DNA from: Gammaproteobacteria bacterium
GTDB taxonomy: Bacteria > Pseudomonadota > Gammaproteobacteria > UBA6429 > Thiohalophilaceae
Direction: 5' to 3'
Assembly (NCBI GenBank): GCA_022712915.1
Contig: JAFLJQ010000224.1
Location: forward strand, 1-35,260
DNA: 35,260 bases
Made by a program: the position numbers and the translations under genes. How positions within the stretch are numbered: the stretch's first letter is position 1; the number at the start of each line of letters is the position of its first letter. Shown piece by piece: positions 20,199 to 35,181 of the stretch. The notes under the pieces are model-generated. The model ran no database searches. It was not told where the DNA came from and saw nothing but the letters and a program-made list of their open reading frames with translations.

Positions 20199-21899
20199 CT
20201 ATTTCTTGATAGCATTGATCTCCGCTTCATCATTATCAAATCCGAGCTTGTAACCAAGCGAGACATGGTGATAGCGGGTATCACTATAATCATCATGTAT
20301 AGCAAAGCCAATATTGTACACTTGGTCAAGCGCCATACTCACATCGCCAGCCTTATTTGACTTTAATTTACGTTTCATATCAATCACCCACTGGCCATTT
20401 TTCTTATGACTAGTAAATGTTGCCCCCTGACCACCTTTCATCACCCGGTCAGCGAGGATATAACCATCGTCTACCGTACCGGTGCCGCTCGAATACCGCA
20501 CAAGATCCATAAAGTGGCCTGCCTTAAATTCAGCGTCAATCTCAGCTTGTGACTTACGTTTATCCCAACCTCCCTGCTTCTTACCATTTTTCCCCTTAAT
20601 CTCAATCTCAGTACGGCTTTCAGTAATATATTTTGTTACTTTTTTACCCTCGGGTTCCAATGGCATGCTCTTGGCGTCGATATGACACGTCCCCCAACAA
20701 CCAGCCTGCCCAGCATACTGAACGTCATCCGTTGCCAGCATAAATGCCAACTTAATTGGATTCTTTGGATCCATCTTACCACCCTTCACGCCAGGGACAG
20801 GCGCATGCTTACTCTCCGGCCATACAAAGCGCATATAAAGATGACTGCCATCATGGGTTGCACTAATCGTCACCGGAATGCTACCGCGCTTACCCGGAAT
20901 TGGATTGGATTCAAGCTTCTCACCCGAAACAATCAGCTGGCCAATATCGACCGCTTCTTCATCGTGGCAGTCAAAACAACGGTCGCCAGCCTTAACGGGC
21001 CGTGCCCCACCATGATCCCTGCCACGCATAACCCATTCCATAGAAGATTGTCCTGGGTAGAAGAATACGACCTTACGACTGGGTACTTTAGCCCAGTCGT
21101 CAACTGCTCCACTGCTGGCTGGTGCGGCAGTGGCAGTGGCAGTGGCAACCTTAGCAACAGGAGCTGCAGTGGCCGTTGTAGTGGGCGCATCATCACTTTG
21201 ATTTGTCTTATCATGATCTGATCTAGATGCGACAACTTTACCACCATTATCCACAAAGGCCTGCCACTGCGGGGGTAATGGCTCGATTAACAAAGGATCA
21301 GGTAGCATGAGCTCATCCATGTCCTCTTCACTCAACTGGTCATGTACTTTTGTATGAGCAATCCCCTTGTGGCAGTCAATACAGGTATTGCCCTTCAACA
21401 TCGCATTCAGATGCTGCTTACGCGCCCGAGGTTTCTGATTCTCCGGGTTCATGGTTTTAAAATCATGACAATTGCGACACTCACGGGAATTTGTCGCCTT
21501 CATTGTTCTCCAGACGTTGCTCGCTAACTTGAGTCGCTTGGCGTCAAATTTTTCTGGTGTGTCAATACTGCCCAGTAACATGTGAAGCACTTCATTGGAT
21601 GCCTGAACCTTGCGTACCACCTTATGTACCCACGTTTTTGGAACGTGACAATCAGCACATTCGGCACGCACACCAGAACTGTTCGTATAGTGAACTGTCT
21701 CTACATATTCTTTGTAGACATTATCTTTCATCTCGTGACAAGCGATACAGAAATTCGTCGTATTCGTGACTTCCATAGCGGTATTAAATCCGCCCCAGAA
21801 AATCACACCTACAATCATGAAAAAAAGTGCCGCACCAATAGTGGTCCCCAATAGCGCCTTACGTGAAAACAAACTAAAATTTGTGTTTGATTTAGCCAT
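20199..21899 (-). CDS. NapC/NirT-like tetraheme cytochrome fused to EB_dh-like heme domain
   Basis: The 566-residue protein has an N-terminal membrane anchor (about 15-37) and four CxxCH hemes at C51, C81, C141 and C173, as in NapC/NirT quinol dehydrogenases. A low-complexity Thr/Ala linker (about 238-262) follows. The C-terminal half has a fifth CxxCH at C308 and a beta-rich domain (about 335-540). That domain includes DGSHLYMRFVW and GCWGTCHIDAKSMP, which resemble ethylbenzene dehydrogenase or cytochrome c-552-type heme-binding proteins. The CWGTCH motif at 401-406 has CxxxCH spacing. It lies after nirS and a hairpin, and before the cupredoxin gene. It probably links quinol to periplasmic nitrite reduction; that role is inferred. 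Confidence 0.85.
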   Translation of the reverse strand: MAKSNTNFSLFSRKALLGTTIGAALFFMIVGVIFWGGFNTAMEVTNTTNFCIACHEMKDNVYKEYVETVHYTNSSGVRAECADCHVPKTWVHKVVRKVQASNEVLHMLLGSIDTPEKFDAKRLKLASNVWRTMKATNSRECRNCHDFKTMNPENQKPRARKQHLNAMLKGNTCIDCHKGIAHTKVHDQLSEEDMDELMLPDPLLIEPLPPQWQAFVDNGGKVVASRSDHDKTNQSDDAPTTTATAAPVAKVATATATAAPASSGAVDDWAKVPSRKVVFFYPGQSSMEWVMRGRDHGGARPVKAGDRCFDCHDEEAVDIGQLIVSGEKLESNPIPGKRGSIPVTISATHDGSHLYMRFVWPESKHAPVPGVKGGKMDPKNPIKLAFMLATDDVQYAGQAGCWGTCHIDAKSMPLEPEGKKVTKYITESRTEIEIKGKNGKKQGGWDKRKSQAEIDAEFKAGHFMDLVRYSSGTGTVDDGYILADRVMKGGQGATFTSHKKNGQWVIDMKRKLKSNKAGDVSMALDQVYNIGFAIHDDYSDTRYHHVSLGYKLGFDNDEAEINAIKK

Positions 21900-24631: not shown

Positions 24632-25993
24632 CTAACAGTGGTTACGGCCCCGTGACATAATCTGCAATACAATCCAGATAAACAGGAAACCACCGATGAT
24701 CGAAATCAGGCCACCCAGACCCATCAAGCCCATGGCCACCACTTCCTGTAGACTATCTAGCCCCTGTGCCTCACCAGCCACCTTACGCTGCACACCATAA
24801 CCACCGGACCAAACCAGCCCAAAGATGTGCAACATCTGTCCAGCCCCGTATACATAGGGTTGAATCCGGGCCAAACGTGGTTTTGGTGCCACATAGCCTA
24901 GAGAAGGTAACAGAACATAGGTCAGGCCCATCAGCGCCAGAGTCACCCCCACAATGGAGCCATGATAGTGGGCCGGAATAATGACATTACTCCCCTGAAT
25001 CATGAAACCAATACCGCCTCCAATACCGAACAAAACCATTGACGCAATCAATGCTGCTCGAAACGGACCCTGCTCAGGCTTGCATTTTTCACTGCGCAGC
25101 AACCCATGCAAGATGGCCAAACCCAACGGTAACGTTGCGAGGCTACCACCATATTTCATCAGCCAGGTAAACAGACTAATATGCTCTGCTGAAAGCACCG
25201 GATAGGAAAAATAAATAATCGGTGTGAAAAATATCGTGAAAAGACCAAAAGCGAACATAACCACCACCACCCGCGGGGTAACCGGCAGATTTACCTCACT
25301 CGCACTTGCCAGCCATAACCAGGCAACCAGCATTAACAAGGTATAGGTGAACTGCAGCATATGACCTCCACCCCAGAACAACAATTCATAATATCCCTGA
25401 CCAGTAAGGCTATCTCCAATCATCCACCAGGACCAGACAAACCCCATAATGGCCATGGCAGTAGCAACTGTTGAGGTATTCAAACCAAAGCGCAAAGCCC
25501 CTTCAGACGAGATACGCTGACCCACCCGAGGTATGGCCGTCATACTGCGCCATACCAACAAGACAATTCCAGCGGCAAAACTTAATAAACCAACGAAGAA
25601 CAATTCAGTTTGCAGTACCGGGATGTAATTACTCATCAAGGGACGGCCATCACCGGTAAAGGGTGTGATTGCAATAATGACCGTACCCGCTATTGCCAGT
25701 CCCAGCGCAGCCCAACCAAGACGCATAAAACGCCCGGTGGAATTCAAACTCCACAATACTCCGCCAAAGGCCAGGAACCACACCAGCACAGAAAGATCGA
25801 CATGCACAACCAGCGCCGTATGGAAAAAATCCAGCCACGGAATGATAGACGAAATAAAGGGTGCGCGAGACAACACCAGTAGCAAAGAAAAAAAACCTGA
25901 AACTAGTAAAGCAATTACACCCAGCCACAACCAGCCACTGGCCAATCGACACTGGCCCTCTGCCGGAATCGGCAGCTTATACACATCACTCAT
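24632..25993 (-). CDS. Divergent heme-copper subunit I, gNOR-like NO reductase candidate
   Basis: The 453-residue integral membrane protein has about twelve hydrophobic segments and heme-copper His residues in the right order. H58 and H64 fall in helix II (low-spin heme region), H211 in FWGGGHMLQF (helix VI, CuB), H271 in AEHISLF (helix VII region) and H342, H344 in PAHYHGS (heme ligands). The cross-linked Tyr of O2 reductases is absent: position +4 from H211 is Phe. Helix VII has one His where oxidases have an HH pair. These changes resemble NO reductases of the gNOR group as I know them. It is the last gene of a Dnr-controlled unit with a cytochrome b fusion. No cytochrome c subunit is adjacent. 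An atypical cbb3 oxidase is less likely. Confidence 0.75.
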   Translation of the reverse strand: MSDVYKLPIPAEGQCRLASGWLWLGVIALLVSGFFSLLLVLSRAPFISSIIPWLDFFHTALVVHVDLSVLVWFLAFGGVLWSLNSTGRFMRLGWAALGLAIAGTVIIAITPFTGDGRPLMSNYIPVLQTELFFVGLLSFAAGIVLLVWRSMTAIPRVGQRISSEGALRFGLNTSTVATAMAIMGFVWSWWMIGDSLTGQGYYELLFWGGGHMLQFTYTLLMLVAWLWLASASEVNLPVTPRVVVVMFAFGLFTIFFTPIIYFSYPVLSAEHISLFTWLMKYGGSLATLPLGLAILHGLLRSEKCKPEQGPFRAALIASMVLFGIGGGIGFMIQGSNVIIPAHYHGSIVGVTLALMGLTYVLLPSLGYVAPKPRLARIQPYVYGAGQMLHIFGLVWSGGYGVQRKVAGEAQGLDSLQEVVAMGLMGLGGLISIIGGFLFIWIVLQIMSRGRNHC

Positions 25994-26035: not shown

Positions 26036-26554
26036 TTAGCGAAAAATAAAACCGCCCGCTTCTGATTCGAAGTCTATTACAAAAACCTGCCCGGGTGCGA
26101 GACTTACATCCATCTGTTTAACATAATTGTAGTCCGCCAATTTTTCATGATCCTTCATGCGGACCACAAGATGATGTTTTCCAATTGGCACCGTCAAGCG
26201 CTCATAGATGCTAGCGATGCCATCCCGCTGAATACCCGATGGTCGCACACTATTGCTAAAAATCAACTTGCCATCCACTTCCAGATCCAGCTGTATCGAT
26301 GACCGCTCCCTTGGGCAAATTTCACTAACACGCATGTTGGGGGAAAGCTTGGCCAATTCATCTGCACTACGTTTGCTGCATTTCCCTTTTATCTGCCCTG
26401 AATGACTAATACTAATCTTAATCAACGCATTGTCGTGCGAAAAGTGTTCATAGGGTGGTGAATTTGAAAAGGTCATCAATATTACAGCAAACAGGGCAAA
26501 AAATATGATTTGCCCTATATGTGCAAATATGCGATTCATTGTTGGATTAGACAT
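26036..26554 (-). CDS. Membrane-anchored periplasmic protein of unknown function
   Basis: The 172-residue protein has one N-terminal membrane segment (about 12-28), then a beta-rich soluble part. Two Cys (in KGKCSKR and SEICPRE) could form a disulfide. The rest has IQLDLEVDGKLIF, GKHHLVVRMKD and a C-terminal QVFVIDFESEAGGFIF. No cupredoxin copper-ligand pattern (C-x3-C-x3-H) is seen, so it is not a CuA subunit. It sits between the hemerythrin gene and the heme-copper subunit gene on the same strand, with short gaps (13 and 42 bases), and could be a second subunit of that enzyme. I do not recognise the family. An alternative start is the ATG at 26539. Confidence 0.65.
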   Translation of the reverse strand: MSNPTMNRIFAHIGQIIFFALFAVILMTFSNSPPYEHFSHDNALIKISISHSGQIKGKCSKRSADELAKLSPNMRVSEICPRERSSIQLDLEVDGKLIFSNSVRPSGIQRDGIASIYERLTVPIGKHHLVVRMKDHEKLADYNYVKQMDVSLAPGQVFVIDFESEAGGFIFR

Positions 26555-26567
26555 ATATGTTTAACCC

Positions 26568-26957
26568 TCAACCCAGTTGGCGATGCAAACGAGCATCTTC
26601 CGACTTAAAATGTAGAGTGAACCAGCTAACCAGAGCCTTTACCAACTTTTCAGCACTGGCATATCCTGACGCCTCATGGTCATCCATTATTTCACGCAAT
26701 TCATCCAGCAATTTATCGTGATCAAGCTTATGTTCCTGATAACGGTCATAACGGTGATTACGCATAATTTTCTCTTCTAGCGCAAAGTGAGCCGAGATTC
26801 TGGCAAATAACTCACCCATCAATTTATCTTTAACAATGCCGGACTTACCGCCAAGTGCCTGACATATTTCATTTAGCAGAATAATCAATTCCCGATGTTC
26901 ATGATCAATTGACTCCACACCAATACAAAAATCATCGCTCCATAACAACTGCGTCAT
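26568..26957 (-). CDS. Soluble bacteriohemerythrin
   Basis: The 129-residue cytoplasmic hemerythrin has the full ligand series: His in DHEHREL, His and Glu in HFALEEK, His in RNHRY, the HKLDH pair, and HFKSED near the C-terminus. It opens with LLWSDDFCIGVESIDHEH, typical of the family. Its ATG overlaps the stop of the cytochrome b fusion gene by four bases (ATGA), so the two are translationally coupled. In an operon with an NO-reductase-like enzyme, O2 or NO binding near the membrane is likely. Delivery or scavenging cannot be told apart from sequence. Confidence 0.92.
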   Translation of the reverse strand: MTQLLWSDDFCIGVESIDHEHRELIILLNEICQALGGKSGIVKDKLMGELFARISAHFALEEKIMRNHRYDRYQEHKLDHDKLLDELREIMDDHEASGYASAEKLVKALVSWFTLHFKSEDARLHRQLG

Positions 26958-28543
26958 AGATCACCCCTTAACTCTTCACCATCTACATCACCATCTGAAA
27001 CGCGATTTTTTTTAACTCGATTGGGACCGAGAATCTTCAATTTTTCTTGAAAGGCCGTTAATTCTTTTCTTAGCTGCTTGATATGTCCTGCCCCATACCA
27101 GAGTCTGGACAATCGTTCTCGTGACACACGTTGTCTCAGGCCGGGATCTCTCTGATTAGTCAGACGTTGCTCAGTCCAATCAATACCAAAGCGATGATGA
27201 CAATTACCATCACGACAACCGGTCAACACAACCCCGTCGGCATAATTACGAGAGATAAGAAAATCAATAAACGACGGAGGTAAAAATCCAATACAGGGCA
27301 ATGACATCACGGCCACACTGTCTGACTTCAAGGAATTTAATTCATCACCATGATCACAACCAAACACAAATACCTTGTTCTCGCCACTTAATGCCTCTGC
27401 CGCATTAATTGTACGTTCACGCAATTCAGAAATAGCGAAGTCCGCCAATTCGATACCCGCCACATGGGCACCCTGACGCCGAAAGGGGGTCGCTGTTGGA
27501 CAAGCCCCGACACAAATGCCACAACCTACACACTGATCCGGGTCGACCACGGCCTCTTTCTCATAAGGCAAACCATCCGTGCGTGCTTGCATAACCACTG
27601 CACCATAAGGACAGTCAACAAAACAGCGCTCACAGCCATTGCAATTTTCCAACTCAACCTCAGCGACTGAAATTCGTTTCGGCCTGACGACCAGAGGCAA
27701 CAACATCAGTGCAAATGATCCCCCCCCCAACAATAACCACACCGAGCCATATGACCAGCTATCCATCAGCGGATAAACACCCAGATAAAACCAATCCAGA
27801 TCAACAACGGTCACCACCTTATCAAGGTTGGCGGGATCCATGCTGATGGCCGGTTTAATAAGGGAAAGCACCACCATGGCCAACAGAACGCGCCAAGCCA
27901 AACCACCCACAGGGTTGCTCTTTGGTTGGCTGATACGCTGGATATGAATCCACATAACCAACAAAAAGACGAGTGGAATACCGATATGCAAAAATGACAG
28001 TAGGGAAAAAAAGCGATCACTCAGGTGGGCTTCATTAAGAAAGTTACGCGCCATAGCCATGTTGAAAATGGGCAACCAGTCCAGCCATTCTGACGTCAGC
28101 ACCGCAACAAACTGGGCCAGTTCATCCCACACCAGCCAGTAGCCACCAACTCCCGAGGCATACATTAGCCACAACAAAAAGACGCCGGAGACCCACGAAA
28201 ACCAGCGCACACCGTTAAATCGCCCCCGACAAAACTCCCTCAGTAGGTGCACAACAACAACCAGCACCATTGCATCGGACGCATAGCGGTGCAGACTGCG
28301 CATCACGCCCCCCAGATACCACTGCTCATGCGTAAGACGTTCAACCGAATTATAAGCTTCGGTAACACTGGTCTCAAAAAAGATATAGAGATAAACACCA
28401 CTAGCGGCCACGATCCAATAGAAGAAGAACGCGAGTCCACCCAGTTGATAGAAGGGGTTCAATTTCGGGCCAAAAAAACGATCAGCCAGCTCTTCAAATA
28501 CCCGAAACAACCTAGTACCTACTTTTTGTATAACTACCAGCAA
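26954..28543 (-). CDS. Cytochrome b / 2x[4Fe-4S] ferredoxin / MvhD fusion protein
   Basis: In numbering from an upstream TTG at 28585, a cytochrome b N-terminal domain (about 30-220) has all four b-heme His: H99/H113 and H200/H214, each pair 14 apart. Two more membrane segments follow. Then come two [4Fe-4S] sites (C315, C318, C321, C325 and C352, C355, C358, C362) and an MvhD/HdrD-like domain (about 400-470) with Cys 410, 431, 457 and 462. The topology places the iron-sulfur part in the cytoplasm. The Dnr palindrome and a TAATTT -10 put the transcript start near 28578, inside the TTG-28585 frame. I therefore prefer the TTG at 28543; a TTG at 28510 is an alternative, both with AGG seven bases upstream. 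It may move electrons between a cytoplasmic donor, quinone and the neighbouring heme-copper enzyme. Confidence 0.85.
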   Translation of the reverse strand: MLVVIQKVGTRLFRVFEELADRFFGPKLNPFYQLGGLAFFFYWIVAASGVYLYIFFETSVTEAYNSVERLTHEQWYLGGVMRSLHRYASDAMVLVVVVHLLREFCRGRFNGVRWFSWVSGVFLLWLMYASGVGGYWLVWDELAQFVAVLTSEWLDWLPIFNMAMARNFLNEAHLSDRFFSLLSFLHIGIPLVFLLVMWIHIQRISQPKSNPVGGLAWRVLLAMVVLSLIKPAISMDPANLDKVVTVVDLDWFYLGVYPLMDSWSYGSVWLLLGGGSFALMLLPLVVRPKRISVAEVELENCNGCERCFVDCPYGAVVMQARTDGLPYEKEAVVDPDQCVGCGICVGACPTATPFRRQGAHVAGIELADFAISELRERTINAAEALSGENKVFVFGCDHGDELNSLKSDSVAVMSLPCIGFLPPSFIDFLISRNYADGVVLTGCRDGNCHHRFGIDWTEQRLTNQRDPGLRQRVSRERLSRLWYGAGHIKQLRKELTAFQEKLKILGPNRVKKNRVSDGDVDGEELRGDL

Positions 28544-28612
28544 CGTCTTACCTACTTTTAATTTAAGAATAATTTGAAATCTCAAATTACCACAGTATTA
28601 CACTCAAGTAAC

Positions 28613-28626
28613 TTGACCTATGTCAA
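28613..28626 (-). promoter_or_regulatory. Dnr/FNR-type palindrome upstream of the cytochrome b fusion
   Basis: TTGACCTATGTCAA has two matching half-sites and overlaps the last codons of the SCO gene. A TAATTT -10 at 28584-28589 has class II spacing. The site would drive the fusion, hemerythrin, unknown protein and heme-copper subunit genes. Confidence 0.8.
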
Positions 28627-29426
28627 GCCTCCTGTTGCCGGTATCGACGCCACTCACGCATGAGTACATAAAAGACAAAACCCATGCATGTCAGACCAAT
28701 AAGGGAACCCATGATAATGGAATAATCGACAAAATAACGGTCATTGGCCGGATCGTACACGGTGCAAAATAAACGAATCTTGTCTCCAATATGACCAATC
28801 AGCGATCCCTTTCGGGGTTGGCCATCCAATAGCTGCTTGAGAGGCTCAACCAACAAAGGGGTTGAAAAGTCCATATCATAGACCTGCCGATATACCTTGC
28901 CCTGACCATCAACAACCGAGGCCTGGATCAGGTGATCAAACCCTTTCGGTGAGACACGAAATTGAAACCCAAGATCTTTCGCCAATCCACTAATGGTTTT
29001 TTCATCGGCACTCAAAAATTGCCAGTTGTCACTATTAACACTCTGTTGTGCAGCAAACACCCGCATAGCATCCACAGTATCATTAGTTGTATCAAAACCA
29101 ATGGTCAGTACATTAAAACTTTTGTCACCCAAGGCCTGCCTGGCCTTGTCCACCACATCGGAGAGGTGACGAGTAACCGTAGGACAAATATGATAACAAC
29201 TGGTATAGATTAAACTGATGACCAAAGGACGACCCTGAAACGAGGCAAGCTGTACTTGTTGCCCATAGGTATTGGTAAACACATAGTCACCAACTACCTT
29301 GCCTATTGCAGCCTGACTATAGGCCAGGATGGCCTTTTGATCAGGTTCAGGAGACGTATCAGCCGCCTGTACGACGGATAATACGAACTGCATTAATGCT
29401 AAGACAAAAAGTATAACTAACTTCAT
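28623..29426 (-). CDS. SCO1/SenC/PrrC-type copper chaperone
   Basis: A 267-residue membrane-tethered periplasmic thioredoxin-fold protein from the ATG at 29426. It has a signal peptide (core LFVLALMQFVLSVVQAA) and the copper-binding motif CYHICP. The distal His is in FDHLIQASVVD, and a C-terminal membrane segment (about 235-258) is followed by a basic tail. SCO proteins load copper into CuA or keep its cysteines reduced, which fits the CuA subunit encoded upstream. A TTG at 29435 would overlap the ctaB stop, so coupling is also possible. The Dnr palindrome of the next operon overlaps its 3' end. Confidence 0.9.
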   Translation of the reverse strand: MKLVILFVLALMQFVLSVVQAADTSPEPDQKAILAYSQAAIGKVVGDYVFTNTYGQQVQLASFQGRPLVISLIYTSCYHICPTVTRHLSDVVDKARQALGDKSFNVLTIGFDTTNDTVDAMRVFAAQQSVNSDNWQFLSADEKTISGLAKDLGFQFRVSPKGFDHLIQASVVDGQGKVYRQVYDMDFSTPLLVEPLKQLLDGQPRKGSLIGHIGDKIRLFCTVYDPANDRYFVDYSIIMGSLIGLTCMGFVFYVLMREWRRYRQQEA

Positions 29427-29431
29427 ACCAT

Positions 29432-30292
29432 TCAAACTACATGAATATCCAGCATAGATCCAATCAAGACCAGAGTAAGTTGAATCAGGGATGCAAAGAA
29501 ATTCCCCATAGCCTTTTTACGTGTAGGTTCCTGCACCAGCTGGATATTTTTGTAAATAAAATATATGCCTCCAACAAAAGCACAGGCCAGATAAAACCAA
29601 CCCAGGCCCCAGTCAAAAAATGCCGGTAATAACGAAACGGCAACCAGCAAAATTGTATTTGCAAGAATAATCCATGCCGCTTTTTGATCACCTACTACAA
29701 CAGGTAACATAGGTACTTTGGCTTCGGCATAGTCTTTATGCAAGGCTATAGCCAGACTCCAGAAGTGTGGAGGTGTCCAGAGGAACAGAACCACAGCCAA
29801 AATGATGGCCGAAGAACTCATCCCGGGATCCGCCGCTGCCGCGCCAGCAAGCACCGCAAAACTGCCCGCCAATCCGCCAATCACAATATTCCAGGCACTA
29901 CGCCGCTTGAGCCACATGGTATAAATCACACCATATGTAAAAGCACCCATGAAGGCATGAAAGGCGACCATAGAATTAAACCACCAGTTTGCCACCACGA
30001 CAGATAACATCAACAAAAGAGCAATGCTCCATAACCATATCTGACCGGCTTTAAAAGAACCCGTCACGAAGGGGCGACTACGTGTTCGCACCATCCGGGC
30101 ATCCAGATCGCGCTCAATATATTGGTTGAAAGCACCAGCACTGGCGGATGACATCAAAACGACCAGGCCGAGCAAAAGAATTTCTAAGGGATGTAAGCTA
30201 CCACCCGGTGTGACCGCATAACCGGCCACTGCTGTAATAGCGATCAATAAACCAATTCTCAGTTTAAAGACATTAACAAGTTGTGAAAACAT
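29432..30292 (-). CDS. ctaB: CtaB, heme O synthase (protoheme IX farnesyltransferase)
   Basis: A UbiA-family membrane prenyltransferase that converts heme B to heme O. The ATG at 30292 is chosen because GAGG lies six bases upstream; the frame extends to a TTG at 30316. The product is 286 residues with about nine membrane segments. The prenyl diphosphate-binding motif NQYIERDLDARM and the following RTRSRPF are present, and YAEAKVPMLPVVVGD lies in the second half. It follows a strong terminator after the heme-copper subunit I gene and leads into the SCO gene. Presence of ctaB and a ctaA-like gene suggests the neighbouring enzyme uses heme O or an A-type heme. Confidence 0.94.
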   Translation of the reverse strand: MFSQLVNVFKLRIGLLIAITAVAGYAVTPGGSLHPLEILLLGLVVLMSSASAGAFNQYIERDLDARMVRTRSRPFVTGSFKAGQIWLWSIALLLMLSVVVANWWFNSMVAFHAFMGAFTYGVIYTMWLKRRSAWNIVIGGLAGSFAVLAGAAAADPGMSSSAIILAVVLFLWTPPHFWSLAIALHKDYAEAKVPMLPVVVGDQKAAWIILANTILLVAVSLLPAFFDWGLGWFYLACAFVGGIYFIYKNIQLVQEPTRKKAMGNFFASLIQLTLVLIGSMLDIHVV

Positions 30293-30341
30293 GACAGGCC
30301 TCAGTTTTTTTGGCAAATTAACATAATTATAAATTAAAAAA

Positions 30342-30379: not shown

Positions 30380-32074
30380 CTAGCTTAGACCCCAAGTCTG
30401 GGACAAATATTTCCAGTTTATAAAGTAGTACAACACAAACACCGCCAGGAATACCAGAGCCAGAACCAACGTACCCGGAATAGAGATCTTGCCGATACCA
30501 ATGCCATCATAATTATCAACAGGCTCAGCAATCATAGGCGTAGCTGACTTCTCATTTTCACCCAGGCGTTTACCGAGGAAGATGGAACTCACTATCACCA
30601 GAACAAAGATGCCGCCACCGACAACGGACATCACGACCGACATACCACCAAGTCCCATCAAGGTATAGGCTGCTGCGGGGAAATCATAAGCCATCGCCGT
30701 ACCAGAGAAACCCATGTCCCAGTGACGACGAGGAACACCAAGAGTGCCCGCGCCCATCAGGAATAGAGCCACACCCGTCATACCAATACCAAACACGTAT
30801 GGCTGTATTTTGGCCAACCCTGTCATCATGAGTTTACGACGAAACAGGATAGGTACCAACCAGTAGGTTAGCGCCATAAACGCCAACGTTGTACCTGCCG
30901 CGACAGTCGCATGGAAATGACCAGGGACATAGATGGTGTTGTGGATGATCAGGTTGATCTGTTCAGTTCCCATTACCACGCCAGAGATACCGCCAACAAA
31001 ACCAAAAATAATCAATGACAGAAACATTCCGGAGAAGGTCGGGTTACCCCAGGGAGCCTTACGTAACCATTCAAATATACCTTTATTGTAACCACGTTTG
31101 CGTTGCGCCGCTTCAATAGAACCAGGCACTGTCAGACCGTGAATCATACTGGCCATAACCGCCAGGTACATGGCATAACTGGTGTTGAATATTTTCCACT
31201 CAGCACCGACACCAGGATCAACCAGAATATGGTGAACAGAGGCCAACTGCAGGAACAGAATATACAACAGGAAGGCTGCACGACTGACCTTTTCTGACAA
31301 GGGTTTCGCACCAAAGACCACACCGGCAATCGCATACCAAACCGCAACGTGAGCGGCAACATTGATTTGCTGTGACGAATGACCAAAGGCCCACCAAATG
31401 ACACGATACATGAGCGGATCGATCTTACTGATGTAACCGATTGACCAGAGGTACGTCGGGATCAGAATGATCGCGCCAGAGGCAATGGTGAAAATCGCGA
31501 TAATACAGGCCACCAACGCACCGTACGTTACCAGCGGCAATGAACCATCACCATAGGTATTATCTTCCTTCGCGATAACCAATGTACCGAGAAAAACAAA
31601 ACAACCTATCAAGGCACCGACTGCAAACAGAATCAGACCCAAATAGAAGCTCGGCTCTGCTGCCATAGGCACATAAGATGTCATCATTACACTGGAGCGA
31701 CCTTGCAGCACAGTGAGGTTATTCATCACGGCACCGACCAACATCAGCCCAAAACCAACCCATGCTATGCGTGGTGTGGCCAGCCGACTTCGCAACAACG
31801 TTGACGAGGTAAAATACAACAAAGCAATCTCAAAGAAAATGAGCCAAAAAATCAACACGTTAATACCGTGTGATGTTAATACCATGTAAAAAGCATCCGC
31901 TGGAAGCAAGTGAACTGCCGGCCAGCGTGTCAACCCGACTAAAAGACCAAAAATACCGCCAAACATCAGAAATACTACAGCCACCACGGCATTGACCTTC
32001 ATCAACAGTTCAGCTGGTCGATGAAATAGTAGCCCTGTGTCTGGACAAGTACGAAATTCATTATTATTAGACAT
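30380..32074 (-). CDS. B-family-like heme-copper subunit I with Tyr to Gln, eNOR/bNOR-type NO reductase candidate
   Basis: The 564-residue membrane protein aligns by eye with ba3-type subunit I along much of its length. Ligands are H69 (low-spin heme), H232 (CuB, in WWAFGH), H281 and H282 (CuB, SVHHILVDPG), H386 and H388 (in VPGHFH). The oxidase Tyr four residues after the first CuB His is Gln (Q236, in GHSSQQ). Loss of this Tyr is a mark of NO reductases, and a Gln at this place has been described for eNOR/bNOR-type enzymes. It lies 11 bases after a CuA subunit II gene. A Dnr-type site upstream and nearby nirS also favour NO reduction. O2 reduction cannot be fully excluded. GGGAG precedes the ATG. 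Confidence 0.85.
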   Translation of the reverse strand: MSNNNEFRTCPDTGLLFHRPAELLMKVNAVVAVVFLMFGGIFGLLVGLTRWPAVHLLPADAFYMVLTSHGINVLIFWLIFFEIALLYFTSSTLLRSRLATPRIAWVGFGLMLVGAVMNNLTVLQGRSSVMMTSYVPMAAEPSFYLGLILFAVGALIGCFVFLGTLVIAKEDNTYGDGSLPLVTYGALVACIIAIFTIASGAIILIPTYLWSIGYISKIDPLMYRVIWWAFGHSSQQINVAAHVAVWYAIAGVVFGAKPLSEKVSRAAFLLYILFLQLASVHHILVDPGVGAEWKIFNTSYAMYLAVMASMIHGLTVPGSIEAAQRKRGYNKGIFEWLRKAPWGNPTFSGMFLSLIIFGFVGGISGVVMGTEQINLIIHNTIYVPGHFHATVAAGTTLAFMALTYWLVPILFRRKLMMTGLAKIQPYVFGIGMTGVALFLMGAGTLGVPRRHWDMGFSGTAMAYDFPAAAYTLMGLGGMSVVMSVVGGGIFVLVIVSSIFLGKRLGENEKSATPMIAEPVDNYDGIGIGKISIPGTLVLALVFLAVFVLYYFINWKYLSQTWGLS

Positions 32075-32085
32075 GTCCGTCTCCC

Positions 32086-32628
32086 TTAATCTTTAACGTA
32101 GATCTTGCCCACCATTCGATGGTGACCAATTCCACAATATTCATTACAAAAAATCGAATAATCTCCCGATTTATTTGGTGTCACAGTGATCACCATGTCA
32201 TAGCCCGGCAAAACCTGAGTATTGATATTGACCGGTTGCAGGGAAAAACCATGCTGCCAGTCCATGGACGATAGATGTAAACGATAACTCTGGCCTTTTT
32301 TCAATTCCAGGATTGGCCACCAATCCCATAGTCGAGCGATAAGATAAACATCGCTGCCCACAGGCGGAGCAACCACGGGGATATCTCTATCGGTTTCTTT
32401 GCGCACGGTATATTTATCTACCATAGCCTGGGTTTTATTCTGAAAAAATGTAGGTGTGACGCGATAAGCCTCATTGGACAGGTTCTGTTTACCAACCACA
32501 TGCCAGTAAGGCATCATAAAGGTCATAATCAAACCCCAGACAACGCAGAGGCCGATCCAAATCAGTTCAACACTTTCAATCGGTTCATTCCACCAGATTT
32601 TTTCCGAGGGGGGTGAAAGACTGCTCAT
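32086..32628 (-). CDS. Heme-copper subunit II with intact CuA site
   Basis: The 180-residue protein has one N-terminal membrane segment (about 21-42) and a periplasmic cupredoxin domain. The CuA ligands are all visible: His in WQHGFS and the block CNEYCGIGHHRM (Cys, Glu, Cys, His and Met). It therefore should accept electrons from a soluble cytochrome c or copper protein, not directly from quinol. Short relative to many CuA subunits, it resembles the B-family type. GGAG lies eight bases before the ATG at 32628. It follows the 48-residue peptide gene and precedes subunit I. Confidence 0.92.
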   Translation of the reverse strand: MSSLSPPSEKIWWNEPIESVELIWIGLCVVWGLIMTFMMPYWHVVGKQNLSNEAYRVTPTFFQNKTQAMVDKYTVRKETDRDIPVVAPPVGSDVYLIARLWDWWPILELKKGQSYRLHLSSMDWQHGFSLQPVNINTQVLPGYDMVITVTPNKSGDYSIFCNEYCGIGHHRMVGKIYVKD

Positions 32629-32659: not shown

Positions 32660-32806
32660 TTATTGTGCAATCGGAATGGTCACGATTTCCATGATTCCCC
32701 ACATAATATAAAACACGGTGGGAATAACAACGCCCAAAAATAGCAACAAAAAGGGATTGTCGAGAATGCGTTGCATAACGGGAATACTTTCTTTTTCATT
32801 GTTCAT
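32660..32806 (-). CDS. 48-residue single-segment membrane peptide, probable small subunit
   Basis: This short gene encodes a 48-residue peptide beginning MNNEKESIPVMQRILDNPF, followed by a hydrophobic segment (about 19-37) and ending ...TIPIAQ. GGAGG lies six bases before the ATG at 32806, a stronger ribosome site than most neighbours have. It is the first gene of the CuA/heme-copper unit, with subunit II 31 bases downstream. Small one-helix subunits are known in ba3-type enzymes, so a subunit IIa-like role is likely, though the sequence is too short to prove family membership. Confidence 0.75.
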   Translation of the reverse strand: MNNEKESIPVMQRILDNPFLLLFLGVVIPTVFYIMWGIMEIVTIPIAQ

Positions 32807-33136
32807 ATTTGCCTCCAGCAGACAGGTGTTGATTTTGTTTTGAAATTATTAAATGTGCAGCAATTCCCCCTGCCCTCACGACAGAGAATGGTCTAAATCT
32901 TAAATGCATCTGTAAGGTGCGACTTCAGCATATTCATCAAGATAAATACTTGACTTAAATCAAGGGGGTCTCATGCCCACTCAAACCTAGCTTAAATTTA
33001 TGATATTAATGATAGAATGCTTGTAGCCATAATCAACTATGATAAAAATATTTCTCAGCTATATTAAGCTATCCTTATATTGCAAAAAATTTATCTTTAA
33101 AACTAATGATGTGTACGTACATAACAAAAATAGCGG
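32807..33136. other. Divergent regulatory region, CuA operon and ctaA
   Basis: A 330-base noncoding region between the minus-strand CuA operon and plus-strand ctaA. It contains the Dnr-type palindrome at 32950-32963, which could serve either side. I find no well-placed consensus -10 for either direction, and nothing else notable. Confidence 0.55.
32950..32963 (-). promoter_or_regulatory. Dnr/FNR-type palindrome upstream of the CuA-type operon
   Basis: TTGACTTAAATCAA fits TTGAC-N4-ATCAA. It lies about 150 bases upstream of the 48-residue peptide gene and about 175 bases upstream of ctaA on the other strand. It therefore may control one or both. Confidence 0.72.
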
Positions 33137-34162
33137 ATGAAGCTAATGCAAAGCCAAACCAAGACAAAGTCCAGTAATAGCCTTTTTATTTCACTTGTTT
33201 CTCTTTCTTTACTGTTGACACTAATAACGGTTGTTCTCAGTGCCTATATTCGCTTGTCCGTTAATGGACTGGGTTGTGATAATTGGCCAGACTGTTATGG
33301 CAAGGTCAACCTATCTGTTCAGCATCAAGGCATCGATGTCTTGACCAACACGGGCAAAACAATGCAGCATAGCGGCATACGTACCTTGCATCGTCTGGTA
33401 GCCAGTGTATTAGGTATCTTTGTTGTAATGATTGCCATCATGGCTTTACGCCGGCGAGGTGTCCCTGATAATACGGGAGCCACTGTACCAATACTGATAT
33501 TGGCTATAACAATTTTTCTGTCATGGCTGGGGTACGCCACACCCACCCCCTTACTACCCGCCGTCACACTAGGTAATCTACTCGGTGGCATGGCAATGCT
33601 AGGCTTGCTGTGGTGGCTCAGCCAGCGCATAGCCGTCCAAAATTCCGCGCAACAAATACACAGTTACCACCTTAAACCGAGCATCATCGTGGGTCTTGTT
33701 CTGCTATGCGGACAAATTGGGTTGGGTGCCTGGAACAGTGCTTTTTTTGCCGGACCGGCCTGTCCAGAGCTAGGCTCCTGCTCAGGGGCTGAGTGGTCCA
33801 CATCAGCCATCAATATTTTCACAGCATTAAGCATCGACAACCAGGGTAAAGTCATCAATGCTGGCACAGCCGAAACAATTCATCTGATACACCGCCTGGG
33901 GGCCATTGTCACCGCAATCTATCTGCTATGGCTTGGATTCAAGATCATTGCCTGCAAAGACAAATTACGCACAACCGCTATCACCCTACTCAGCTTACTT
34001 GGTTTACAGCTCTCGCTTGGTCTGTTATCCATCCCCATGCAACTACCACTTCTAATGGTCACGGCACATAATGCCATTGCGGCCATTTTATTATTGACCA
34101 TGATAAATCTCTATCACCTTTTGAGCCCGCCATCGAGGGGAGCAGCACCTTCCAGGGTTTAG
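33137..34162 (+). CDS. ctaA: CtaA/Cox15-like heme A synthase with helix-4 His replaced
   Basis: The 341-residue membrane protein has eight helices in two similar halves, as in heme A synthase, which oxidises the C8 methyl of heme O. Both periplasmic Cys pairs are present (C47/C53 in GCDNWPDC and C209/C215 in ACPELGSC). Of the four heme-ligand His expected, three are visible: H85 in TLHRLVAS, H252 in IHRLGA and H311 in TAHNAIAA. The helix-4 position is Asn (N147 in LGNLLGG, where many homologues have LGHLLGG). The codon is AAT at 33575-33577, one base from His. It is divergent from the CuA-type operon and convergent with dnr. It may be active with altered heme binding, or may have diverged in product. 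Confidence 0.87.
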   Translation: MKLMQSQTKTKSSNSLFISLVSLSLLLTLITVVLSAYIRLSVNGLGCDNWPDCYGKVNLSVQHQGIDVLTNTGKTMQHSGIRTLHRLVASVLGIFVVMIAIMALRRRGVPDNTGATVPILILAITIFLSWLGYATPTPLLPAVTLGNLLGGMAMLGLLWWLSQRIAVQNSAQQIHSYHLKPSIIVGLVLLCGQIGLGAWNSAFFAGPACPELGSCSGAEWSTSAINIFTALSIDNQGKVINAGTAETIHLIHRLGAIVTAIYLLWLGFKIIACKDKLRTTAITLLSLLGLQLSLGLLSIPMQLPLLMVTAHNAIAAILLLTMINLYHLLSPPSRGAAPSRV

Positions 34163-34170
34163 TTTTTTCA

Positions 34171-34860
34171 CTACTGAACAATAAACTGGCGCAAGCCTTT
34201 AACATTGTGCACAGCAATATCCTGCCTTGAAACTGAGATAATGCCATCTTTAATCAAACGTGACAGGATTCGGGAAAAGGTCTCCGGCTGAATTGAAAGC
34301 CTTGAGGCAATCACACTCTTCTGGGTAATGAGGTGGATATCCGGCCGTTCGGTTGCCCCATCGGGTATCTGCTCCAGCAGGTAATTAACAAGCCGGTAAG
34401 TTGCGTTCTGCAAGGCCAGACTATTAATCTCACTGATACGAGAATGCAAACGCTGACTCATGGTAGTCATTAAACGGAAACAGCTATCGTTTGACTCTTT
34501 GAGAATATTGCGAAAAACCCGCATATCAAAACTATAGAGTTCACTTGCAAGAATGGCCTCTACACTGACCGGATACTGATGCTGCTCCATAAACATAATG
34601 GCCTCAGCAAATGTTTGACCTGGCTGAATAATCTCAAATATTTTCTCATAGCCCTCAGCCGAAACCTGAAATAATTTAACCTGACCGGAACACAAAAAAT
34701 AAAACCGCTCAGCATGTTCACCGCGCTCAAATAGCCTCTCATGAGTAGTCAGGCTAACACGGTAAGCCGACTTAATCACCTCATCTAGTTGTTCATCATC
34801 CAGCGATTCGAACAAATAGATACGTCGTATTTCATCTTTAGTAGGCAAATTATTCTGCAT
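34171..34860 (-). CDS. Dnr-like Crp/FNR-family regulator
   Basis: The 229-residue cytoplasmic regulator (start ATG 34860, GGAG eight bases upstream) has a cyclic-nucleotide-type beta-roll with GEHAERFYFLCSGQVKLF, a long dimer helix, and a C-terminal helix-turn-helix ending in PETFSRILSRL. The E-x2-SR pattern matches regulators that read TTGAT half-sites. It lacks the N-terminal Cys set for an FNR-type [4Fe-4S] cluster; only two isolated Cys are present. This makes a Dnr-type, NO-responsive heme regulator more likely than FNR. A perfect palindrome lies about 85 bases upstream, suggesting autoregulation. It probably controls nirS, the heme d1 genes and both heme-copper units. Confidence 0.85.
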   Translation of the reverse strand: MQNNLPTKDEIRRIYLFESLDDEQLDEVIKSAYRVSLTTHERLFERGEHAERFYFLCSGQVKLFQVSAEGYEKIFEIIQPGQTFAEAIMFMEQHQYPVSVEAILASELYSFDMRVFRNILKESNDSCFRLMTTMSQRLHSRISEINSLALQNATYRLVNYLLEQIPDGATERPDIHLITQKSVIASRLSIQPETFSRILSRLIKDGIISVSRQDIAVHNVKGLRQFIVQ

Positions 34861-35181
34861 TTTTTTAGCTCCGCTAACCAACCGGATATGTAACTCTCTA
34901 TTGTAATACCTTAACTCTGACAAGCTTAGTATTTATACTTGATCTAGATCAAGTAGTGAAGCCTTTTGATAGTATTTACGATGGAATCGATTATAAGCAA
35001 CATTCTGTCCGGCCTCCTGAATACCATACATATGCAGCAAAAATTCATCGTTAATGACAAATTAAACATATACAGTCTGCTTTTTAAATATTAAGCAAAT
35101 CATAATGGCGTTAAACACACGGGCCCCTTATATTCATGTTGTTTAGTAACTATTCAGCATGAATTCACCACTCCGAAGTAC
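34861..35181. other. Region upstream of the regulator gene
   Basis: About 320 bases holding the palindrome at 34939-34952, then AT-rich sequence without a convincing frame. It ends at the stop of a truncated minus-strand frame. Confidence 0.5.
34939..34952 (-). promoter_or_regulatory. Dnr/FNR-type palindrome upstream of the dnr-like gene
   Basis: TTGATCTAGATCAA is a perfect palindrome centred about 85 bases before the chosen ATG. A transcript beginning 41 bases from its centre would have a short leader, which fits class II activation or autoregulation. Confidence 0.82.

Follow-up and report, generated by a model that had tools for sequence, protein, structure and literature searches.

The window considered here is a stretch of 35,260 nucleotides from a gammaproteobacterial contig, whose minus strand carries a putative nitric oxide (NO) reductase operon with the gene order 48-residue open reading frame (ORF), COX2, 564-residue COX1, CtaB-like gene, SCO, cytochrome b protein, hemerythrin, 172-residue protein and 453-residue COX1. 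This work deals with the cytochrome b gene (26954-28543, minus strand), whose product joins a membrane cytochrome b, a double ferredoxin and an MvhD domain in one polypeptide. The original prediction, made by a model from the sequence letters, had described this domain order, intact metal ligands and a role in a NO operon, and these points were upheld by the Pfam, alignment and neighborhood analyses described below.

The ORF can be extended to a TTG codon at 28585, which gives 543 residues; TTG 28543, which gives 529 residues, fits the starting points of homologues (for example, in locus L012) better. Residues are numbered here in the 543-residue frame. Pfam models scored above their curated cut-offs in the order Cytochrome_B (residues 36-218), Fer4_7 (314-365, together with other ferredoxin models) and FlpD/MvhD (422-520), with some further ferredoxin models below their own cut-offs. 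Ligand conservation was analyzed in an alignment of 58 rows of 470-680 residues, the window included and shorter fragments left out, 57 of which are distinct (L004 and L014 are identical). The heme ligands His 99, 113, 200 and 214, which make up the two His pairs typical of bc1/b6f cytochromes b, are identical in all 58 rows. The complete set of eight ferredoxin Cys (315, 318, 321, 325, 352, 355, 358 and 362) and four MvhD Cys (410, 431, 457 and 462) is present in 55 rows, the other three being paralogues that bear another C-terminal module.

The 2x[4Fe-4S] ferredoxin part, with its eight Cys, is encoded at 27488-27667 and the MvhD/FlpD part at 27011-27376, both on the minus strand. Assignment of the latter to the PF02662 family is based on its score (46.3 bits, cut-off 22.3) and its conserved Cys, and two MvhD chains of the PDB were matched with E values of 3e-10 and 1e-8; Cys 431, 457 and 462 align with those chains and Cys 410 lies outside the alignment. 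By Foldseek, 5odc_D was matched with a TMt of 0.73. This is the single FlpD match in the whole genome assembly, in which no NiFe hydrogenase large subunit was matched and seven CCG domain matches were found elsewhere. As had been noted originally, no heterodisulfide reductase (Hdr) or hydrogenase genes were detected among the operon genes by Pfam scans, which also failed to reveal a hydrogenase or HdrA partner among the window proteins, no search aimed at HdrA having been made. The whole protein reached only 68.7 bits with the HdrA2 model NF040770 (curated value 1100 bits), and a PHROGs search recovered the ferredoxin piece only. A flavin domain was not found in the protein by Pfam, though a separate subunit might carry one.

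The membrane part (27677-28504, minus strand) was delimited with a structural model, a fold alignment and hhalign as a bc1-like cytochrome b with helices A-F and the four heme His. The AF2 model of the protein, built from 42 sequences, reached a pLDDT of 83.9 and a pTM of 0.83, and residues about 27-303 were aligned by VIA-align with the whole bc1 cytochrome b at Z values of 16-20 in the rows shown; as modeled, the membrane part thus extends beyond what corresponds to the N-terminus of cytochrome b6. When the protein was aligned by hhalign with the bc1 cytochrome b of the same genome (E 5e-13), Asp264-Trp265 (27791-27796, minus strand) was placed on the PVWY motif of the latter. This pair, a putative variant of the Qo motif PEWY, had been overlooked in the original prediction and is invariant in the 58 rows, in which the position reads x-D-W followed by Phe (50 rows), Leu (4), Tyr (3) or Met (1), and not PEWY. 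The genome's own bc1 cytochrome b (L002) carries PVWY in place of PEWY. By homology with bc1, the Asp-Trp loop would be periplasmic and the chain beyond helix F cytoplasmic, which agrees with the cytoplasmic location first suggested for the iron-sulfur part. In cytochrome b6f, the Cys of the FYCLGG motif binds heme cn; the protein studied here reads FYQLGG, with Gln at the b6 Cys position.

The 564-residue COX1 (30380-32074, minus strand) has a ba3 oxidase as its nearest PDB relative, yet the active-site Tyr of oxidases is replaced by Gln within a GHSSQQ motif, the replacement being found in 43/43 rows. Gln at this position is the eNOR criterion given in PMC8756737. Subunit II (32086-32628, minus strand) is a cupredoxin scoring barely above the PF00116 cut-off and below that of TIGR02866, with a CuA-type motif H...CNEYCGIGHHRM recognized by eye. 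From these residues and the adjoining cupredoxin, the pair at 30380-32628 is identified as a predicted NO reductase of the eNOR type. The eNOR-type plasmid relatives of Thermomicrobium and Thermus show GHGAQQ, sharing the pattern GHxxQQ, and a Haloarcula relative shows GHPVVY. Upstream of COX2, the 48-residue single-helix ORF (32660-32806, minus strand) resembles an ORF at the same place in L033 and is perhaps an extra small eNOR subunit, a piece like subunit IIa of ba3 oxidases.

A scan of GTDB representative genomes yielded 48 loci, which their record titles assign to alpha-, beta- and gammaproteobacteria. Neighbors were tabulated by tblastn, with denominators restricted to loci with enough flank among the 48 (short-flank rows were left out); an earlier table based on ORF picking was dropped, since long antisense ORFs masked real genes in GC-rich loci. 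On the same strand, eNOR I and eNOR II were each found in 40/40 loci, the 172-residue gene in 45/45, SCO in 43/44 (within 3.5 kb), the CtaB-like gene in 38/41, hemerythrin in 31/42 and the small COX1 in 10/39. A screen for recurrent neighbors (families in at least 6 loci) added NirD/NirJ-like proteins, recognized by eye, NosR-like proteins (FMN_bind plus Fer4_5) and, immediately before COX2, the small ORF described above.

The original prediction had proposed the adjacent small heme-copper subunit I (24632-25993, minus strand, 453 residues, PF00115) as a possible electron partner, described it as gNOR-like, and named repeated linkage to it and to hemerythrin as what would support the idea. Linkage of the cytochrome b gene to an NO reductase operon is indeed conserved, with eNOR I/II and the 172-residue gene as much more constant partners than the small COX1, an optional member that is missing from the flank examined in 29 of 39 loci; hemerythrin is frequent and not among the most constant genes. 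The small COX1 adjoins the operon genes in the window and, in genome G195, a CtaA gene and a small heme-copper gene come after a fusion of the cytochrome b and 172-residue proteins, apart from eNOR, which speaks for such a partnership. On these counts, a partnership of the cytochrome b protein with the gNOR-like enzyme and hemerythrin is considered highly improbable. The gNOR label does not agree with the residue criterion examined, which, according to a table in PMC8756737, is Asp at the active-site Tyr position; this position is occupied by Phe in 11/11 rows of the small COX1 aligned with 43 eNOR rows. In this alignment of distant sequences, 11/11 rows of the small COX1 also show Ile-Tyr where eNOR has the His-His of helix VII. 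In L142, a CtaA gene (PF02628) immediately precedes the small heme-copper gene; the gene next to the small heme-copper gene of L159 has no Pfam match, and its interpretation as CtaA-like was rejected.

The co-occurrence of both systems was analyzed in two samples of genomes, which overlap in some genomes and are phylogenetically non-independent; scoring was restricted to the 3 or 5 best preliminary candidates of each genome, so that misses are possible. In the class sample (274 genomes), eNOR I was found in 24, the cytochrome b gene in 24 and both in 23, and in the phylum sample (398 genomes) the corresponding figures were 30, 34 and 29, with Fisher probabilities, uncorrected for relatedness, of 3e-31 and 8e-38, respectively. 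The class-sample genome with eNOR and without cytochrome b (G301) has its contig end 24 bases past the COX1 match, and the one with cytochrome b and without eNOR (G253) is 77% complete, its contig ending in SCO. In the corresponding phylum-sample genome with eNOR (G370), the contig breaks off shortly past SCO, and cytochrome b without eNOR was found in five phylum-sample genomes (G419, G435, G443, G524 and G575), one of which (G443, listed as 96% complete) shows opposite-strand genes, ABC-transporter-like by eye, upstream of CtaB, at the place expected for eNOR. Adjacency is weaker than co-occurrence: the two genes lie within about 6 kb in 18 of the 23 class-sample genomes with both, farther apart in 2 and on separate contigs in 3, the values being 15, 2 (on one contig) and 12 for the 29 phylum-sample genomes. 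Some of these separations are contig breaks and others look real, as in genus g331.

The other near-constant partner, the 172-residue protein (26036-26554, minus strand), consists of one N-terminal helix and an Ig-like beta sandwich (model pLDDT 95) whose domain would face the periplasm. Its partnership with the cytochrome b protein is reinforced by gene architecture. G195 and G305 carry in-frame fusions of both proteins, L050 and L053 show a reading frame that stays open from one gene through the other, and two cytochrome b copies are present in L023 and in L054, every copy being followed by its own 172-residue gene. In fold searches, the model was not reliably matched to a cofactor-bearing fold or to any other (lowest Foldseek E 5e-3, highest Z 9.3). 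Two Cys of the domain are conserved, one of them invariant and the other almost so, and by eye neither a copper-binding motif nor a redox ligand set was recognized. This near-constant partner and the strong eNOR association would suit a direct wire, in which electrons pass from the b hemes to the eNOR CuA through the 172-residue docking domain, with no quinone chemistry. We regard this arrangement as improbable, considering the invariance of Asp-Trp, the missing redox ligand set of the docking domain and the unlinked cytochrome b and eNOR genes of some genomes.

Paralogues with other cytoplasmic modules bear on the proposed direction of electron flow. Five cytochrome b copies with plant-type [2Fe-2S] ferredoxin, FAD and NAD(P) domains form one clade (support 1.0), the module having been recognized by Pfam in two of them and by tblastn to the same module in the others. 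The best score of the L151 copy, 203.8 bits, corresponds to BenC, for which the cut-off is 430, and neither a NOR gene in 17 kb of surroundings nor a 172-residue gene was matched near it. Another copy (L152, 5675-8212, minus strand, genome G194) joins the cytochrome b part to flavodoxin, FAD and NAD domains scoring 547 bits with CysJ, below the curated cut-off of 668, and its cytochrome b part is identical to that of its ferredoxin/MvhD neighbor in 276/276 residues; the CysJ-type fusion is a recent copy of the neighbor. It lies in the row PCuAC, CtaG, SCO, cytochrome b/CysJ and NnrS. In four loci of family f198 from another class (L116, L118, L155 and L205; assemblies of 1.2-1.9 Mb, 69-88% complete), two tandem cytochrome b/ferredoxin/MvhD copies were observed. 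Since CysJ- and BenC-type modules normally oxidize NAD(P)H, electron entry from the cytoplasm would be the simplest direction.

Electrons entering from the cytoplasm could also serve the maturation of copper centers, if the protein were a transmembrane reductase that keeps copper or thiols of the periplasm reduced for SCO and for the CuA and CuB of eNOR; CcoG and STEAP reductases are functional analogues of such an enzyme. This role is retained, as a serious though rather unlikely alternative, because of the constant SCO neighbor, which is immediately upstream of the cytochrome b gene in the window, and because the CysJ form lies among copper-related genes, and it would also suit the two conserved Cys of the 172-residue domain and the NAD(P)H modules of paralogues. 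An invariant Asp-Trp pair at the Qo position would be unexpected in a metal reductase, however, the cytochrome b/172-residue fusions of G195 and G305 lie about 11-14 kb from SCO, and inspection by eye revealed no copper-binding motif in the 172-residue protein.

In a bifurcation scheme, quinol would be oxidized at Asp-Trp, one electron passing to the CuA NO reductase and the other one through hemes bL and bH and then the clusters to a cytoplasmic acceptor of low potential, so that the reduction of ferredoxin or NAD(P) would be driven by that of NO. Features in its favor are the bc1 fold, which has both heme sites and a Qo-like motif, the exchange of the iron-sulfur module of the cytoplasmic (N) side for NAD(P) modules and the very oxidizing acceptor enzyme of the same operon. 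Such a scheme is judged unlikely, and still harder to credit is its stricter form, a Rieske-free bc-type cytochrome b through which NO respiration yields a low-potential reductant (ferredoxin or NAD(P)). Rieske proteins were matched three times in the genome, one match adjoining the ordinary bc1 cytochrome b, none on the contig of the window and none among the 15 window proteins scanned, and cytochrome c1/f partners were not found in the window-protein scans or among recurrent neighbors, no dedicated search having been made beyond those. The lack of a reliable match of the periplasmic (P) side partner model to a cofactor-bearing fold, the lack of a Pfam flavin domain in the protein and the normal NAD(P)H-oxidizing activity of CysJ- and BenC-type modules also count against it. 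The BenC- and CysJ-like modules of the paralogues would be more in line with simple electron entry from the cytoplasm, and electron bifurcation is possible but not indicated.

We tentatively propose, with somewhat less than even confidence, that the cytochrome b/ferredoxin/MvhD protein and the 172-residue domain form a small complex that accompanies proteobacterial eNOR, in which electrons from the cytoplasm would reach a Qo-like site and then, through quinone, NO reduction. The donor would be a flavoprotein or ferredoxin partner docking on the MvhD part, or NAD(P)H itself in the paralogues, and electrons would pass from the MvhD cluster to the two [4Fe-4S] clusters, heme bH and heme bL. They would leave on the periplasmic side at the Asp-Trp site, where most likely a quinone would be reduced and would then feed NO reduction. 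Quinone chemistry is favored over a bare wire or a metal reductase because of the Asp-Trp motif.

Several observations weigh against this proposal. A CuA subunit that would accept electrons from a donor of the cytochrome c type is already part of eNOR, electron flow from inside to a quinone site of the P side would spend membrane potential, and FNR-type modules can run in reverse. No candidate for an MvhD donor or partner emerged from the screen of recurrent neighbors. In genus g331, which belongs to a different class of the phylum, 7 of the 8 genomes that have eNOR and cytochrome b carry them on separate contigs, and cytochrome b adjoins a nirS-like gene in 4/9 short loci. The eNOR-type loci of the Thermomicrobium and Thermus plasmids lack a cytochrome b gene within 7-8 kb, and, save for one Defluviimonas record, none was found in the rest of the plasmid collection, a search that covered plasmid records. 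Concerning the 172-residue protein, a ferredoxin/MvhD copy of L159 (G662) is not directly followed by its gene, and tandem cytochrome b copies share a single 172-residue gene in one family.

The remaining genes of the operon were assigned from their domains. SCO (SCO1/SenC copper chaperone, PF02630) is encoded at 28623-29435, the CtaB-like heme O synthase (UbiA family, PF01040) at 29432-30316 and a bacteriohemerythrin (PF01814, with NF033749 above its cut-off) at 26568-26957, all of them on the minus strand, and the CtaB-like relative in the Defluviimonas operon carries a heme o synthase annotation. Divergently, a CtaA-like heme A synthase (33137-34162, plus strand) scored above the PF02628 cut-off, and it is followed by a gene of the Crp/Fnr family (34171-34923, minus strand), assigned by Pfam and Dnr-like by eye, with a box at 34939. 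Fnr/Dnr-type boxes were also located by a strict pattern scan upstream of the operon (32950-32963) and at the junction of the SCO and cytochrome b genes (28613-28626). In the window, six strict TTGAYNNNNRTCAA boxes were observed and 0.29 were expected, a figure to be read with the caution that the strict pattern was picked after a looser scan (60 observed, 29 expected) and that one of the six boxes is within COX1. The Dnr control initially asserted for the operon is plausible in view of the regulator and the boxes. Elsewhere in the window, an unusual fusion of a NapC/NirT tetraheme domain with an ethylbenzene-dehydrogenase-type heme domain (PF03264 plus PF09459) is encoded beside nirS (20199-21899, minus strand), and a second hemerythrin-domain ORF (PF01814; 19108-19674, plus strand) shows hydrophobic N-terminal stretches by eye.

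Cytochrome b/ferredoxin/MvhD genes of NOR operons were not described in the literature searched, the main NO reductase family survey being outside the search. For FlpD with heme-copper enzymes, the single match was PMC8756737, in the portion covered, where Table A3 lists one ORF (RME88945.1) with cytochrome b6, DMSOR_beta-like and FlpD domains; it is listed for an additional cytochrome c 'C1' domain, and neither a discussion of it nor a tie to eNOR was found in that portion of the source. Orf1 of the norSY-senC-orf1 cluster of ammonia oxidizers may be the same gene. If the proposed role is correct, a near-constant and previously unremarked component would be added to proteobacterial eNOR systems, together with a concrete gene set for how eNOR gets electrons or is assembled.

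Among known systems, the Fd-then-MvhD order and the Cys pattern are shared with the MvhD/FlpD subunit and the C-terminal part of HdrA2, from which the protein differs in lacking the HdrA flavin part, in an operon without HdrBC or hydrogenase genes and in the attached cytochrome b. Among NCBIfam models, the cytochrome b part scored best with ExtP (NF040969; 114 bits), and in the CysJ paralogue residues 220-291 were matched by ExtQ (NF040970; 32 bits). ExtP and ExtQ are b-type cytochromes of selenite/tellurite reduction operons, represented by separate models without a ferredoxin/MvhD part, and both scores fall far short of the respective curated values of 290 and 150 bits. The likeness to bc1/b6f cytochrome b is extensive and includes helices A-F, the four heme His, the fold and the presence of Trp next to an acidic residue in the ef-loop motif, with the differences that the chain ends after helix F, Asp replaces the Glu of PEWY, an iron-sulfur or NAD(P)H module is fused on the N side and no Rieske or c1/f gene was seen alongside. 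If the proposal holds, the bc1-type cytochrome b family would be widened by an exchangeable cytoplasmic module (ferredoxin-MvhD, BenC-like or CysJ-like), and a membrane-anchored beta-sandwich partner would take the place that the Rieske protein has in bc complexes. In the association of b6f with FNR in cyclic electron flow, ferredoxin/FNR electrons enter cytochrome b from the N side. The proteins described here differ from that association in the NO reductase context and in the lack of a Rieske protein and of a Cys for heme cn, and the FNR-type paralogue would be its covalent version.

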